Positions 28,528-33,993 of a stretch of 64,000 nt of DNA are shown one piece after another (positions within the stretch are counted from its first letter, which is position 1; the number at the start of each line of letters is the position of its first letter). A program made the position numbers and the translations under genes. The stretch is from an uncultured Oscillibacter sp. GTDB lineage: Bacteria; Bacillota; Clostridia; Oscillospirales; Oscillospiraceae. The notes beneath the pieces are model-generated. The model was given only the letters and a program-made list of their open reading frames with translations, was not told the origin of the DNA and searched no databases. Where the stretch lies: NCBI GenBank assembly GCA_947365245.1, contig CANAWG010000006.1, forward strand, positions 1-64,000, in the 5' to 3' direction.

Positions 28528-29548
28528 GACTGTCCCCCAGAACATAATGCACCGCCGGAGCGGGTCTCCGGGGTCCCGGGCTGAGGAGGCATCCTTAATA
28601 TCGCGCGTTTGCGGGCGGAGTGCCGGAAAGCGAAAACCGCCGGAGTCGGCGGTTCCTACTTGGCAAACCAAGTCCCGTTTGGATCTGGAAAAAATCGGAT
28701 TTTGAAGAGAAACAGAAGGAAAGAAAATCTGAGACTGAAGCCCATGGACATGGCGGAGGATCGGGGCGCCCTTTTGATGAAAGGCGAGCCGGCGGCCCTT
28801 TCGGTAAACGAGATCCGGGATCCCCCGGGCAGCGGCGTCGGCTCCATTCTGGCCCCGGTGTCCAGGACCTGACGGGCGCGGGGGCCTTTATGGAGCCCTA
28901 TGTGATCTCGGAGTTGGAGTCCAATTCCGGGAAGTCAGAGACTTTGGCGGGCGCCGCCCGGACTCAGTCCGTCGGCCCCGCTTTCGGCATCGCGGAGATC
29001 AAGCCCCTCGAGCTGAATGTCACCACCCTCGTGGACCGGAACATCTCTCCGCCGAGCCCCGCCAACTACTACGATAAAATCTCCGGCATGGCAATGCGGG
29101 CCATACCGGAGGCTGAAATTGCAGCCCCGCGCCGGAGGCGGCCCCGGGGACGCTTTCCGCCGCCCAGCCCCAAGCCCCGGAGGCGTCACCTGTGCCTCCC
29201 CGCTTCACCCCAGGCGGAGGCCTCTGTGCTGCCGGAACCCGAGCCCTCCGCCCCGCCCCTCATCCGTTTCTGGGGAAAGTGATCTGTTATGGCCACAGGG
29301 AGCACATTCAGGTCCAGTGCCTGACCCGCCGCCCGGAGGCCAAGGCTTTCACTTGGAAACTCGAGCGCAATACCCGGGCGGCGGAAGAGGCCGCCAGGCG
29401 GATTGAGCAGGTCGTGCTGCAGGAACTTGAAAAATAATTTTTGATCCTGTCGCACGGTTTTGCACAAATATTGGGGTTGTGCGGCCTCTTATTAGAGCGC
29501 GCTTGCTGTGGGACTTTCTGCGCTTCCTTTCTCTCTGAAAAAAGCCGC
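28528..29548 (+). other. Degenerate prophage stretch without an intact gene
   Basis: Several short open frames are present (for example LTGAGAFMEPYVISELESNS near 28.9 kb and FTWKLERNTRAAEEAARRIE near 29.38 kb) but none has a credible start, and I cannot assign them. By position between portal and sheath remnants, these are likely scraps of capsid or head-tail genes. Confidence 0.45.
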
Positions 29549-30226
29549 GTGTCCAGCGGCATTGTGGCGCTGATCCTGCGGGACGCCAAGGTGAAAGGGA
29601 TCTGGACCATCCGCCGGGAGATCGGCATCCTCACGGAGCTGGCCTCCCTGGTGAAGGCGCAGCGGACCAAGCGGTTTGTGGGCAAGGCGGTGCTGCCGGA
29701 CACCGCCGCGGACGACGAGGGCGTGGTGAATTTCACGGCCTCCGGCATTCAAGCCGGCGGCGAGACCTATACCGCCGCCCAGTACGCCGGCCGGATCGCG
29801 GGAATCCTCGCCGGAACGCCGGCGGACTGCAGCGCCACCTATGCCGCGCTGTCCGAGGTGACGGGAGCGGCGGCCGTTGAGAACCCAGACGCCACCGTGG
29901 AGGACGAGTACCTGGGCAGGTGCGCCAACAGCTATGACAACAAGTGCATCCTCCTGACGGCGTTCCGGGACTTCCTGGACTCTCTGGAGGCCCAGAACGT
30001 GCTGACGAAGGACTCCTCCGGCGCGGAGCTGGACGCGGAGGCCATTCGGACCTATCTGCTGGAGGAGGCCGCCAAGGCGGGGAATATGACGGAGGCGGCC
30101 CGTATCCGGGGCCTCAGCGATGACGCGCTGCGGCGGGAGAGCACCGGGAGCCATGTGTTCCTGAGCCTCTACGGCAGAGTCATGGACGCCATGGAGGACT
30201 TCCACATCACCCTGGAAGCGCAGTAA
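29549..30226 (+). pseudogene. Contractile tail sheath protein, internally deleted
   Basis: SSGIVALILRD is the N-terminal sheath motif, but the frame jumps to the middle and C-terminal parts (VKAQRTKRFVGKAVLPDT, EDEYLGRCANSYDNKCILLT, MEDFHITLEAQ). About 225 residues remain, clearly shorter than XkdK-like sheaths as I recall them. The start and internal pieces are lost; the 29441 start in the ORF track lies in unrelated sequence. It is followed 15 bases on by the tail tube gene. Confidence 0.7.
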
Positions 30227-30241
30227 GAGAGGAGAGATTGT

Positions 30242-30670
30242 ATGTCTGACGTATTGGATTCCAAGCTGGTACGGAGCGGCACGTGGGGCGCGCTCTGGAT
30301 GGACGGGGAGCAGGTGGCGGAGTGCTACGGCTTCCAGCTGAAGATCAACAAGAACAAGGAGGACGTGCCCCGGTGCCGGACGCTGGTGAGCGGGAAAAAG
30401 CTGACGGGGGTGTCCCTGACGGGGTCCGTGAAGCTGTACAACGCCACCAGCCGCCTGCTGGAGGCGGAGGGCCGGGCCATGGCCGCCGGAGAGGACATCC
30501 GGCACACCATCATCAGCAACCTGGACGACCCGGACAACCCCCGGAATCAGCGGATCGCCGTCAAGGGCGTGATCTTTGACGATCTGACGCTGGCGGACTG
30601 GGAGGCCGCCAAGCTGGGGACCATCGAGGCCCCCTTCTCCGCGGAGAGCTACGAGATTCTGGACTACTAA
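30242..30670 (+). CDS. Phage tail tube protein (XkdM-like)
   Basis: 142 residues, about the usual length for the tube of PBSX-type contractile tails, with the characteristic start SGTWGALWMDGEQVAECYGF and the segment VSLTGSVKLYNATSRLL. ATG 30242 follows GAGAGGAGAG. It is the best-preserved structural gene of the remnant and sits in canonical order: sheath, tube, assembly chaperone, tape measure. Confidence 0.88.
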   Translation: MSDVLDSKLVRSGTWGALWMDGEQVAECYGFQLKINKNKEDVPRCRTLVSGKKLTGVSLTGSVKLYNATSRLLEAEGRAMAAGEDIRHTIISNLDDPDNPRNQRIAVKGVIFDDLTLADWEAAKLGTIEAPFSAESYEILDY

Positions 30671-30680
30671 AAAGGCAAAA

Positions 30681-30698
30681 GCCGCCCCTGCGGGCGGC
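30681..30698 (-). terminator. Compact hairpin after the tube gene
   Basis: GCCGCCC-CTGC-GGGCGGC. On the minus strand it is followed by TTTTGCCTTTTT, an ideal terminator for an antisense transcript coming from the downstream structured locus; on the plus strand there is no T run. Confidence 0.65.
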
Positions 30699-30703
30699 AC
30701 GAA

Positions 30704-30733
30704 TTGACAAATTGCGGCGCGGCGTGATAAGAT
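30704..30733 (+). promoter_or_regulatory. Strong sigma-A-type promoter before the structured locus
   Basis: Perfect TTGACA, an 18-base spacer, then TAAGAT. It lies inside a tail operon, where no separate promoter is expected, and would start transcription of the toxin-like RNA near 30740. Confidence 0.75.
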
Positions 30734-30756
30734 AAGCGCGTCTCGAAAGAGACCCT

Positions 30757-30969
30757 GGGCGCTGTTACATAAAAGGCGGTTAGCTACTCCCCTGTGAAAG
30801 GGGGTGAGGCTGATGGGCTGGAGGCTTCTTCGCTTCCTGATATGTTTTATCATGGCCTTTCTGGTCATGGTTTACATAGCCCCAAAAGCGTGCTGACTGC
30901 CCGGTGGCACGAGCAGTCAGCGTAGTTCTCTATTCTGATTGTAAGGGCTGACCGTCAGTAACAGCGCCC
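30757..30969 (+). ncRNA. Structured RNA with 5'-3' long-distance pairing, type I toxin-like
   Basis: GGGCGCTGTTAC (30757-30768) is the exact complement of GTAACAGCGCCC (30958-30969). Inside it, GGCGGTTAGC (30775-30784) pairs with GCTGACCGTC (30947-30956) with two wobbles. The transcript ends would therefore fold together around a 27-codon hydrophobic ORF. This closed form is the pattern of type I toxin mRNAs, which are kept untranslated until processed. Another hairpin, GACTGC...GCAGTC, lies at 30895-30918. Confidence 0.65.
30813..30896 (+). CDS. 27-residue hydrophobic peptide, candidate type I toxin
   Basis: Too short for the ORF track. ATG 30813 follows the strong site AAGGGGGTGAGG. The peptide begins MGWRLLRFLICFIMAFLVMV and ends YIAPKAC: a basic N-terminus and one membrane span, like holin-like or Fst-type toxins. 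It sits in the centre of the paired RNA described above. Translation and toxicity are inferred. Confidence 0.6.
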   Translation: MGWRLLRFLICFIMAFLVMVYIAPKAC

Positions 30970-30984
30970 TTGTATGTTTATGAT

Positions 30985-31028
30985 ACCGCCCGGAGACCGC
31001 TTTGTCAAGTATGGCAGGGCGGTTTTTT
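30985..31028 (+). terminator. Rho-independent terminator of the structured locus
   Basis: ACCGCCC pairs with GGGCGGT and is followed by six T. It would stop the toxin-like transcript before the tail assembly chaperone gene. Confidence 0.7.
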
Positions 31029-31060
31029 CATACCTGAACAGATGAAAAAGGAGGAACATT

Positions 31061-31468
31061 ATGGCGGAAGAGATGAAGAAAGAGACGGCGGAGGCATCCG
31101 TGCTGGAGACGCTGCTGGGGGGCGCGGTGCCCAACGTGGAGAAAGAGCTGCCCACCGCGAAATACAAGGTGGACCGGCTGAGTGAGCTGGCGGGGCACGA
31201 CGTGGTGTTTACCCTGCGGGCGCTGCCCTACGGCAAGACCCACGACCTGGCGCGGTTTACCCAGGACGCGGACGTGAACATCCTGCTGGCGGGGTGCGCG
31301 GAGCCGGATCTGAAAGACCCGCGGCTGATGGAGAAGTTCGGCGGGGCCACGCCGGCGGAGGCGGTGAAGCGGATGCTGCTGCCGGGGGAGATCGCGGACC
31401 TCGGCATGGCCGTTGAGAAGCTGAGCGGCTACCGGCGCGTGACCATCACGGAAGTAAAAAACGGCTAG
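31061..31468 (+). CDS. Phage tail assembly chaperone (XkdN-like), short form
   Basis: 135 residues with the XkdN-like pattern: an acidic N-terminus followed by DVVFTLRALPYGKTHDLARF and KFGGATPAEAVKRMLLPGEI. It follows AAAAGGAGGAAC. Near its end lies a -1 frameshift signal that would fuse it to the downstream frame, as in the gpG/gpGT chaperones of lambda-like tails. It guides assembly of the tail tube on the tape measure. Confidence 0.87.
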   Translation: MAEEMKKETAEASVLETLLGGAVPNVEKELPTAKYKVDRLSELAGHDVVFTLRALPYGKTHDLARFTQDADVNILLAGCAEPDLKDPRLMEKFGGATPAEAVKRMLLPGEIADLGMAVEKLSGYRRVTITEVKNG

Positions 31469-31692
31469 AGGACGGCAGCGACGGGGAATTGGGGCTGCTG
31501 TACTACCTGTTCTCCGTCCACCACTGGGGGCTGAGCGATTTGAAGGCCCTGTGGGAGGGTGAGACCGGGTGGCACGACCTGATTTTCGCGCTGTCGTCCT
31601 ATGAGGTGGAACAGAGGGCGGAGGCATTCAAACATCGCCGGACGCCTAATATAAAAGCATTATATAGAGAGAAAAATAAAGCTCTTCTATAA
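31061..31692 (+). CDS. Tail assembly chaperone, -1 frameshift long form
   Basis: Shifting back one base on AAAAAAC at 31456-31462 continues ...VKKRLEDGSDGELGLLYYLF through YEVEQRAEAFKHRR to the stop TAA at 31690-31692, about 210 residues. The downstream part matches the separate ORF at 31489-31692, which has no ribosome site of its own. The long form normally binds both the tube and the tape measure. Confidence 0.75.
31456..31462 (+). other. Slippery heptamer A_AAA_AAC for -1 ribosomal frameshifting
   Basis: In the zero frame the codons are GTA-AAA-AAC-GGC-TAG, so the heptamer has the canonical X_XXY_YYZ phase two codons before the stop. Only a weak short stem (GCAGC/GCTGC) is obvious downstream. 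Confidence 0.8.
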
Positions 31693-31707
31693 AAGAAGAG
31701 CTTTAGA
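31678..31707 (+). terminator. Hairpin overlapping the end of the chaperone frame
   Basis: AAAGCTCTTCT pairs with AGAAGAGCTTT across ATAAA, and the stop codon of the long form is within the loop. It would reduce transcription into the tape-measure gene and marks the start of an AT-richer insert. Confidence 0.65.
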
Positions 31708-31726
31708 AAGGTAAAAAGACTGCGAA

Positions 31727-31933
31727 TCACATCAACAACAGGAGTAGTGGCAAACTTAATATCAACATCGGAATAAAAGTTAATGCCAAACCCATATATA
31801 GACTCTCTTTGCCGCCAGGAGTTTCCATCCTGCGAGAAAAGCTCTCTGGGCCACTAAATATCAATTGGACACCAACGCCAATGCAGACAAGACCTATCAT
31901 GGTAATGATAAGATAAAAGATCGCAAAGCCCAT
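31727..31933 (-). CDS. Small membrane protein, prophage moron
   Basis: 68 residues with two hydrophobic segments (FAIFYLIITMIGLVCIGVGV and LALTFIPMLILSLPLLLLLM) separated by a polar loop. ATG 31933 follows AGGAGATGATC. It is on the strand opposite to the tail genes and is AT-richer than its surroundings, the mark of a moron inserted between the chaperone and tape measure. Function unknown. Confidence 0.72.
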   Translation of the reverse strand: MGFAIFYLIITMIGLVCIGVGVQLIFSGPESFSRRMETPGGKESLYMGLALTFIPMLILSLPLLLLLM

Positions 31934-31965
31934 ATGATCATCTCCTATTTTTTAGTATATGTGTT

Positions 31966-33993
31966 TTGCAGAAGAAAGTCAAGATAGAGGTGAGAAAATT
32001 GCCTGAAAGCTCTATTGTTGTTACACTGGTAGACCGCTATTCGGATAGTGCGAAAAAGATGACTACGGTGACCAGGGCATTCAGCAAGGATGTAGATGAG
32101 CTGGAAGATCAGCTTCAGAAACTGAACAAAAATAAATATTCCCTGAAAGTGGACGCCCAAAAGGCCAAACAGGCACTTAAGGAGGCGGAAAAGCAGTTCG
32201 CCGCCACAGGAAAAGAGGCTGACGGCCTGAAAGTAGAGATGGCCATGGCGAATTATGACAATATCGTCAAACAGATCAATCTTGTCTCCAAAGCAGCACA
32301 GGAGGGAGAAAGACGCCTCCAAAAGATGGGGGATGCGGCCAGCAAAGAGGAGAACCGAGCTGGGAAAGGAATGCTGGACAGCATAAAAGGTATATTTAGC
32401 GGAGATGGGATCGGCGGCAAACTGGCTTCATCTGGCATATATAAAATGCTTGGTGATTCTGTGGCAGGAGCCATTGGGATTGGATTTGAAAGCACTGTTG
32501 GGCAGCCCATGGCGACTTTGGGCAGCAGTCTAATATCCGGCGTCACATCCGGTGCCTCTGCCGGCGCTATCTTCGGTCCATATGGAGCCCTTATTGGAGG
32601 TGGAATCGGTGCTTTTTCCGGTCTGATCAGCGGAGGAGCACAAATCTTTGAGGCCAAAGATGATGCCTTCAAGAGCTATGTGCAGGAGGCGTACGAGGGC
32701 CAGATGTCGGCGCAGGAAACCTCCCTGACCAGCGGCTCCGCCCTGGCGGCGCAGCGGGAGACGGACCGGATCTCCTTTGAGACGCTGTTCCGCCGGGGCG
32801 GCGTGGAGGATATGGGGATCGTGGAGACCTACCTTTCCAACCTGGTGGAGATGGCCAACAATACCCCGTTCCTCTACGGCGATCTGACGGCCATGAGCAA
32901 GACCCTGGCGACCTACGGGTACAGCGCCCAGGCGGACCAGGAAAAGGCACTTTCCGGAGAGAAAGACTACAACTACATCCTGGATGTCCTCCAGACCATC
33001 GGCGACGCCGGGGCGGCCCTGGGACAGTCCACCGGCGATATGGAGGCCGTGGCCACGGCCATCGGGCGGATGAAGTCCAGCAACAAGGCCACGCTGGAGT
33101 ACCTGAACATCCTCAACGACCGGGGCATCGGCGCTGTGGGAATGCTGGCGGAGGCCAGGGGTGTAGACCAGGGCGCCATGTACGACATGATCTCCAAGGG
33201 CAAGGTGTCCGGCCAGGAGGCGGCGGAGATCATCCTCCAGGCCATGACGGACAGCTTTTCCGGGTCCATGCTGGCCCAGTCCAGAACATTCTCCGGCCTG
33301 ACCTCCACGGTGGAGGGCCTGACCCAGGAGCTGGACAACGCCATGGGCCAGGGCTACAACGAGGGACGCATGAAAGGGCTGACGGCACAGCGGGACTGGC
33401 TCTCCGGGGAGAGCGGCGAGGCCGTCATGGAGGCCAACAAGGCCATCGGCGCGTGGAAAGCGGAGCTGGAGAACAGCAAAGAGCAGTATATCCGGGACGC
33501 GGTGGACGCCATGATGAAAACCGATGAGTACCGGACCGCCCAGGACACCGGAGACGCCGCGGAGATGGGCCGTCTCATCATGGAGGCCAAGGTCCAGGGC
33601 ATGAACGAGTACAACGCCAGCGAGGGGGCGCAGCTGGCCCTGGAGTCGGAGAAATCCCTGGCAGAGGCCATCCGGAGCGATACCAGCCTGGATTCGGACT
33701 ACTGGGACGCCGGATATGAGAAGGGGCAGTGGTTCACCAAGGGACTGGCGGCGGCCATCGGAGGCGGCAAATACTTTGTAAAGGTGGACATAGATCAAGA
33801 GACTGGTCTCACGGTCTATACCGATTCCTACGGCTTCACAGCGGACGCCATGCTGGTGGACCCCGGTGGGGCCAGCGGCCTGCGCGGGTCCGGCTACGCC
33901 TACGGGCTGGACTACGTGCCCTATGACAACTTCCCCGCCCTGCTCCACCAGGGGGAGCGGGTGCAGACGGCGGCGGAGGCCGGCTGGCCTTGA
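31966..33993 (+). CDS. Phage tail tape measure protein, probably truncated
   Basis: 675 residues as opened at TTG 31966, which lacks a ribosome site; GTG 31991 is another option. A coiled-coil N-terminus (DVDELEDQLQKLNKNKYSLK) precedes a Gly/Ala-rich membrane-like segment (GASAGAIFGPYGALIGGGIG) and a region with ALGQSTGDMEAVATAIGRM typical of tape measures. It ends at YDNFPALLHQGERVQTAAEA-GWP, where such proteins usually continue, so the C-terminus is cut. The first 230 codons are clearly AT-richer than the rest, showing mosaic origin. Confidence 0.82.
   Translation: MQKKVKIEVRKLPESSIVVTLVDRYSDSAKKMTTVTRAFSKDVDELEDQLQKLNKNKYSLKVDAQKAKQALKEAEKQFAATGKEADGLKVEMAMANYDNIVKQINLVSKAAQEGERRLQKMGDAASKEENRAGKGMLDSIKGIFSGDGIGGKLASSGIYKMLGDSVAGAIGIGFESTVGQPMATLGSSLISGVTSGASAGAIFGPYGALIGGGIGAFSGLISGGAQIFEAKDDAFKSYVQEAYEGQMSAQETSLTSGSALAAQRETDRISFETLFRRGGVEDMGIVETYLSNLVEMANNTPFLYGDLTAMSKTLATYGYSAQADQEKALSGEKDYNYILDVLQTIGDAGAALGQSTGDMEAVATAIGRMKSSNKATLEYLNILNDRGIGAVGMLAEARGVDQGAMYDMISKGKVSGQEAAEIILQAMTDSFSGSMLAQSRTFSGLTSTVEGLTQELDNAMGQGYNEGRMKGLTAQRDWLSGESGEAVMEANKAIGAWKAELENSKEQYIRDAVDAMMKTDEYRTAQDTGDAAEMGRLIMEAKVQGMNEYNASEGAQLALESEKSLAEAIRSDTSLDSDYWDAGYEKGQWFTKGLAAAIGGGKYFVKVDIDQETGLTVYTDSYGFTADAMLVDPGGASGLRGSGYAYGLDYVPYDNFPALLHQGERVQTAAEAGWP

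Follow-up and report, generated by a model that had tools for sequence, protein, structure and literature searches.

A probable type I toxin-antitoxin-like cassette with mirror-image ends in a prophage remnant of an uncultured Oscillibacter sp., and its relatives in gut Oscillospirales

RESULTS

An approximately 350-base DNA element in an uncultured Oscillibacter sp. is, judging from its homologues, probably a type I toxin-antitoxin-like cassette of compact design, whose insertion point lies between the genes for the tail tube and the tail chaperone in what has become a prophage remnant. It occupies the interval 30704 to 31028 of the window, by which we mean the whole stretch of 64,000 nucleotides that was analyzed (contig CANAWG010000006.1, positions 1 to 64,000), and together with its relatives it looks like part of a large undescribed family of cassettes in the prophages and genomes of gut Oscillospirales, with at least three unrelated peptides. 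Comparative sequence analysis supplies the parts of the element, their conservation, the asymmetry of its promoters, and the covariation and strand-specific wobble of its helices, and it supports the type I toxin-antitoxin reading that an earlier note had given the locus. The parts in the window are as follows (strand in parentheses).

30681 to 30698 (minus): terminator-like hairpin GCCGCCCGCAGGGGCGGC followed by TTTTGCCTTTTT, a putative outer insulator (pattern scan)
30704 to 30733 (plus): sense (peptide) promoter TTGACA-N18-TAAGAT, start expected near 30740 (promoter scan, 10/12)
30757 to 30768 (plus): 5' outer arm GGGCGCTGTTAC, a terminal inverted repeat (sequence; covariation helix 1)
30775 to 30784 (plus): 5' inner arm GGCGGTTAGC (covariation helix 2, 98.7% paired)
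30786 to 30805 (plus): leader hairpin ACTCCCC/GGGGGT, predicted to sequester the Shine-Dalgarno sequence (sequence; pairing probabilities in relatives)
30813 to 30896 (plus): class A 27-aa open reading frame MGWRLLRFLICFIMAFLVMVYIAPKAC, hydrophobic and cationic, candidate toxin (ORF list)
30884 to 30974 (minus): predicted antisense RNA (antitoxin) of ~90 nt, ends estimated (minus-strand promoter, hairpin, and TTTT)
30892 to 30921 (minus): central hairpin GCTGACTGC...GCAGTCAGC, predicted antisense terminator (covariation; T-run)
30935 to 30941 (plus): CTGATTG, able to base-pair with CAGTCAG, the 3' half of the central hairpin, and a possible refolding partner (covaries with hairpin type)
30947 to 30956 (plus): 3' inner arm GCTGACCGTC (covariation helix 2)
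30958 to 30969 (plus): 3' outer arm GTAACAGCGCCC (sequence; covariation helix 1)
30980 to 31008 (minus): inward-facing antisense promoter TTGACA-N17-TATCAT (promoter scan, 11/12)
30985 to 31028 (plus): sense terminator ACCGCCC...GGGCGGT with T-run (transcript fold; sequence)

Most of the sense-strand parts had been picked out in the earlier note and were recovered here. The promoter scan finds the sense promoter where it had been placed, and the 27-residue membrane peptide is encoded by an ORF whose ATG lies behind the strong ribosome site AAAGGGGGTGAGG (the ORF list also holds an upstream GTG variant at 30804), so that the small, usually hydrophobic peptide with a strong ribosome site that characterizes type I loci is present in this class A copy. 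The outer arms pair at 12 of 12 positions, the second helix comprises 10 pairs, two of them G.U, and the sense terminator ends at approximately 31028. What had been overlooked is the near-consensus promoter on the minus strand (31008 to 30980), which outscores every other promoter match in the 3 kb scanned. Because this promoter faces inward, the arms are terminal inverted repeats lying just inside two convergent promoters; and because they are inverted, sense and antisense RNAs would carry the same sequence, that of the 5' outer arm, near their 5' ends. The minus-strand terminator that had been taken as a sign of an antisense RNA is indeed present (30698 to 30681) and would stop read-through antisense RNA, but it is dispensable for the antisense RNA itself, whose likelier end is the central hairpin, directly after the stop codon, with its minus-strand TTTT at 30887 to 30884. 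An RNA of this extent would be complementary to the 3' untranslated region and last codons of the mRNA, and its predicted fold has a z score of -3.7. The 288-nt sense RNA folds at -135 kcal/mol (z = -7.2; none of 200 shuffles was as good), and the stem-loop of its terminator contains the -35 box of the antisense promoter.

Covariation and promoter asymmetry

We collected 100 relatives of the element (93 nonredundant) and aligned 46 class A mRNAs over both helices of the arms and over the central hairpin. The earlier note would have given up its reading had pairing been lost where bases vary among homologous loci; bases do vary, and the pairing is kept, with 95.1% of cells paired. Two-sided changes affect 15 pairs, and compensatory cells number 109; shuffles give 36.5, and slid controls no more than 13. 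Arms also pair better with their own partners than when swapped (-49.2 versus -43.0 kcal/mol). Wobbles in the inner arm, read in the sense strand, are almost exclusively G.U (62 G.U versus 2 A.C in class A, 10:0 in class B, and 11:2 in class C), an asymmetry which argues that the helix is under selection as part of the mRNA rather than as DNA alone. Sense pairing is poorly kept by the three outermost pairs of the arms (26 A.C, 0 G.U).

Five of the nine pairs of the central hairpin have two-sided changes. Its wobbles in class A run the other way (0 G.U versus 15 A.C), although 14 of the 15 fall at one end pair and a second, symmetric scoring gives 8 G.U versus 4 A.C, and we treat this strand bias as weak evidence. 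Among class A copies, 58% have a run of at least four T residues after the hairpin on the antisense strand; on the sense strand, 9% do. Given the reversed wobble bias and the minus-strand T-run, the central hairpin most likely serves the antisense RNA as its terminator. Upstream, the Shine-Dalgarno sequence is predicted to be paired within the leader with a mean probability of 0.92, compared to 0.64 in shuffled leaders (66 relatives).

Within window positions 30913 to 30941 and the equivalents in A3, a short segment downstream of the central hairpin covaries with the 3' half of that hairpin, the pairing energy being -7.2 kcal/mol with its own segment, -5.2 with that of the other hairpin type, and -7.5 with that of the same type. 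This covariation suggests a mutually exclusive alternative helix, which might act as a refolding step or as a loop that starts RNA-RNA contact.

The two promoters differ in quality. The antisense promoter matches the consensus (TTGACA/TATAAT) at 12 of 12 positions in 77 of 91 relatives and at 11 in another 12; since it forms part of the search profile, its presence is partly due to selection, but its perfection is not. The sense promoter, which played no part in the selection of copies, reaches at least 10/12 in 66 of the 91 (versus 1% of shuffles) but is perfect in only 12, the usual defect being a single mismatch in the -10 box, and it is not recognizable within the searched interval in 25 copies, mainly of classes B and C. 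From this asymmetry, an excess of the antisense RNA, i.e., of the putative antitoxin, would be expected.

A family of cassettes with at least three peptides

Searches with the DNA of the element alone (BLAST) return copies in 25 of 86 congeneric genomes, the matches to the window copy being ~70 to 90% identical rather than near-identical. A profile of the antisense end (R1, 68 nt) extends this to ends in 40 of the 86 congeneric genomes, in 106 of 301 genomes at the family level (55 of 106 genera), and in 122 of 394 at the order level; in a class-wide sample searched at a stricter cutoff, it matched 11 of 245, all weakly apart from the window's own genome. Some genomes have ~20 end matches, although one element may match at both ends, and tandem cassettes occur. 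Named carriers, from which we name the order Oscillospirales, include Flavonifractor plautii ATCC 29863 (a class A copy), Pseudoflavonifractor, Oscillibacter, Dysosmobacter, and Yanshouia. A collection of phage DNA yielded one unannotated fecal phage contig at 72% identity.

We judged novelty on open-licence papers and on family libraries. Neither strand matched an Rfam family above the gathering threshold; there were three weak subthreshold matches, the best by E value being to the Manganese riboswitch model (E = 0.054; 16.2 versus 45 bits). Peptide searches of Pfam, NCBIfam, and PHROGs returned nothing above cutoff, and searches of the open-licence literature yielded no match for the architecture of the cassette or for toxin-antitoxin work in Flavonifractor.

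The peptides fall into three classes, A (LRFLVCL...KAC; 63 copies), B (MVTYSELFQF...KKK; 13 copies), and C (MRITLHIGRFTVTIIVKSRNRHPGR; 24 copies), each encoded at a nearly constant distance upstream of the common end. When only class A ends are used to build the profile, it scores 28 to 50 bits against class B and 9.5 to 52 against class C, while shuffles reach 5.7, and the chassis is therefore homologous across the classes. All three occur in the genome of the window (class A at L001, class B at L088, and class C at L089 and L090), where the four further copies (L088/L089/L090) comprise one of class B, two of class C in tandem, and one of class C. At one other locus (L100), class A and class C elements stand in tandem, ~370 nt apart, and the classes are thus combinable in one array. 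We could not demonstrate that chassis have often exchanged their peptides: the tree of shared ends needs 9 changes for the three classes but is almost without support.

Class A peptides have a mean hydropathy peak of 2.66 and a net charge of about +4, and class C peptides are much less hydrophobic. The ratios of pN to pS (0.33 to 0.69 in class A and 0.16 to 0.38 in class C) indicate that the peptides are under purifying selection, although part of this conservation may act at the RNA level, because the last codons of the peptides reach into or directly border the antisense terminator. In class C (e.g., L067, L096, and L089), the codons for the invariant C-terminal NRH fall in the 5' half of a hairpin resembling a terminator, and RNA constraint may therefore explain the conservation of this C terminus. 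Class A peptides matched no toxin family in Pfam, NCBIfam, or PHROGs; class B approaches Hol_Tox (PF16935) from below the Pfam gathering cutoff (the lowest E value of its 14 members is 0.0019, and one member scores 16.2 where the cutoff is 23.3).

These peptides could instead confer a trait on the phage (superinfection exclusion, lysis timing, or a holin-like function) under the control of the antisense RNA and with no addiction toxin involved, a possibility that we consider unlikely. In its favor are the hydrophobic cationic peptides, the presence of the pattern in 11 viral contigs, and copies that adjoin holin-like, endolysin, and tail genes by eye; however, several others lie near apparent chromosomal genes (adenylosuccinate synthase and a glycosyltransferase, again by eye), and one chassis is common to three unrelated peptides. 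The mechanism would in any case overlap that of the type I model, from which this explanation differs in role alone.

Genomic context

The earlier note had placed the element inside a phage tail operon. It does lie between the tube and chaperone genes, but the operon is a decayed remnant, and most relatives lack the inserted cassette at this site. The tail locus of the window (29441 to 33993) consists of a sheath gene lacking ~112 N-terminal residues, the tube gene, the element, the chaperone gene, and a tape measure gene lacking ~40 C-terminal residues, and the window contains none of the LysM and baseplate genes of the longer operon in a related genome, G049; on this gene content, it is a decayed prophage remnant. 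In G049, the tube (95% identical) and the chaperone (84% identical) are separated by 78 nt that contain no element, and most of the other relatives examined likewise have a short gap that holds no element. The site is occupied again only in G011, in a tail operon whose tube is 40% identical, and in Pseudoflavonifractor an element precedes what looks like the same chaperone family. By this comparison, the tail-locus element is a moron-like insertion. The empty gap of G049 (L158) has a strong hairpin of its own (GGCCCCGTCCC...GGGACGGGGCC), and elements may favor sites beside terminator hairpins.

An insertion of this kind could be a mobile inverted-repeat element resembling a MITE, with the arms kept as the DNA ends that a transposase or integrase recognizes, the promoters present by chance, and the peptide incidental. 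The terminal inverted repeats of ~70 bp, each matching the other in reverse, the many dispersed copies per genome, and the vacant locus in relatives all fit this explanation, which we nevertheless consider improbable. Arms that serve only as transposon DNA ends are unsupported by the strand bias of the wobbles, which is unexpected for ends acting at the DNA level, and purifying selection on the peptide, together with the Shine-Dalgarno hairpin and the antisense terminator, speaks against the explanation as well. The divergence of matches from the window copy is unlike recent transposition, and no target duplication is recognizable by eye against the empty site of G049, where the flanks are too diverged to call.

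It is very improbable that the element serves the tail operon as a cis-regulatory RNA or attenuator, governing, for example, expression of the chaperone, with the small ORF as its leader peptide: its intergenic position before the chaperone gene and its covarying alternative hairpins are as such an RNA would have them, but the element also occurs in unrelated contexts and in both orientations, has its own promoter and terminators, and is missing from related tail operons. A chance ORF between terminators, conceivable while promoter and terminator matches in a single sequence were the (weak) evidence, is refuted by 93 nonredundant homologues that share the architecture and show covariation as well as conserved coding, and its probability is negligible.

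DISCUSSION

Under the type I-like reading that we favor, the weaker sense promoter would yield an mRNA of ~285 nt for the 27-aa membrane peptide, predicted in class A to run beyond the central hairpin to the outer terminator, and the stronger antisense promoter would yield an RNA of ~90 nt (about 30974 to 30884) that ends at the hairpin by the stop codon. From these parts we infer transcription, antisense length, RNA stabilities, the involvement of RNase III, toxicity, and biological role. In the full-length mRNA, a hairpin would lock the Shine-Dalgarno sequence, and the 5' leader would be held to the 3' tail by the two-part long-range helix. Because the arms are inverted repeats and the 5'-arm sequence is common to both RNAs, the antisense RNA could bind the 3' tail of the mRNA in competition with the mRNA's own 5' arm, which it would displace. 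Pairing over ~90 nt would then shut down the mRNA, with RNase III as the simplest route. As antisense binding to the 3' arm releases the 5' arm, repression would need the Shine-Dalgarno hairpin or RNase III; the hairpin would keep the mRNA silent while it is committed to RNase III decay. Upon loss of the cassette or a stop in transcription, an unstable antisense RNA would decay first, leaving a stable mRNA to yield the membrane peptide, with addiction or abortive infection as the outcome. We file the element as a type I-like system, since it would work like one, and regard its membership as that of a candidate.

The wider proposal is that Oscillospirales possess a modular family of type I cassettes, in which an RNA chassis with mirror-image ends serves at least three unrelated peptide toxins and acts by 5'-end mimicry, the antisense RNA opening with the toxin mRNA's own start sequence. 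On present evidence, we regard this proposal as evenly poised.

Full-length toxin mRNAs of hok, aapA1, and tisB are translationally inert and engage in long-distance pairing of their 5' and 3' ends, as is predicted for the cassette; to our knowledge, none of them has convergent mirror-image promoter ends. The closest known design is that of Fst/par(pAD1), which likewise places a terminator hairpin between two convergent promoters and has a short membrane peptide, a Shine-Dalgarno sequence sequestered by a leader stem-loop, a complementary 3'-end hairpin that terminates the antisense RNA, and an mRNA 5' end that pairs intramolecularly, and which, with its chromosomal and phage relatives in Gram-positive bacteria, also resides on mobile elements (PMC7472228). 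The repeats of Fst, however, are direct (DRa/DRb) and transcribed in opposite directions (PMC7472228), whereas those of the cassette are inverted, such that both RNAs have the same 5' sequence, and the PxxxG motif of the Fst hydrophobic domain is absent from all 93 cassette peptides; for these two reasons, we place the cassette outside the Fst family. The predicted antisense RNA is also longer (~90 versus ~40 nt), and the class A mRNA would pass the central hairpin to reach the outer terminator.

Other type I systems of prophages resemble the cassette in fewer respects. In the sections of PMC6562991 available, the antisense RNAs of txpA/RatA and bsrG/SR4, from prophages of Bacillus subtilis, pair with the 3' end of the mRNA across ~100 nt; neither terminal inverted repeats nor 5' ends common to both RNAs are described in those sections. 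Class B peptides weakly resemble the Hol_Tox family, with matches that remain under the curated cutoff, and the peptides of classes A and C are unrelated to those of these modules. Modules of Clostridioides difficile, among them CD0956.2-RCd10, share the convergent overlap and the prophage location, and their toxins, of 34 to 53 aa with lysine-rich C termini, are not homologous to the type I toxins known from other bacteria, according to the available part of PMC6563280, in which no chassis shared by unrelated toxins is described.

A profile based on the chassis finds ends in about one-third of the sampled Oscillospirales genomes, often many per genome. The very small size of their components makes type I systems difficult to detect. 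If confirmed, the cassettes would offer a handle on prophage maintenance and phage defense in gut commensals and would imply that unrelated peptides can share one RNA control system; a specialist would be surprised by how widely they occur in a gut order of this importance, by ends that mirror each other, and by a single chassis that carries unrelated peptides, the basic principle being already known. The mirror-image design makes a specific switching mechanism testable.

At three loci from the order- and class-level searches (L148, L152, and L156), the same end adjoins further peptide types, e.g., MLMFFSTYESIFVFISAICDLIQLVVLIVKCIKNDRH and MGNEYIIYFMLILLLLVITIKK, hinting that more classes exist.
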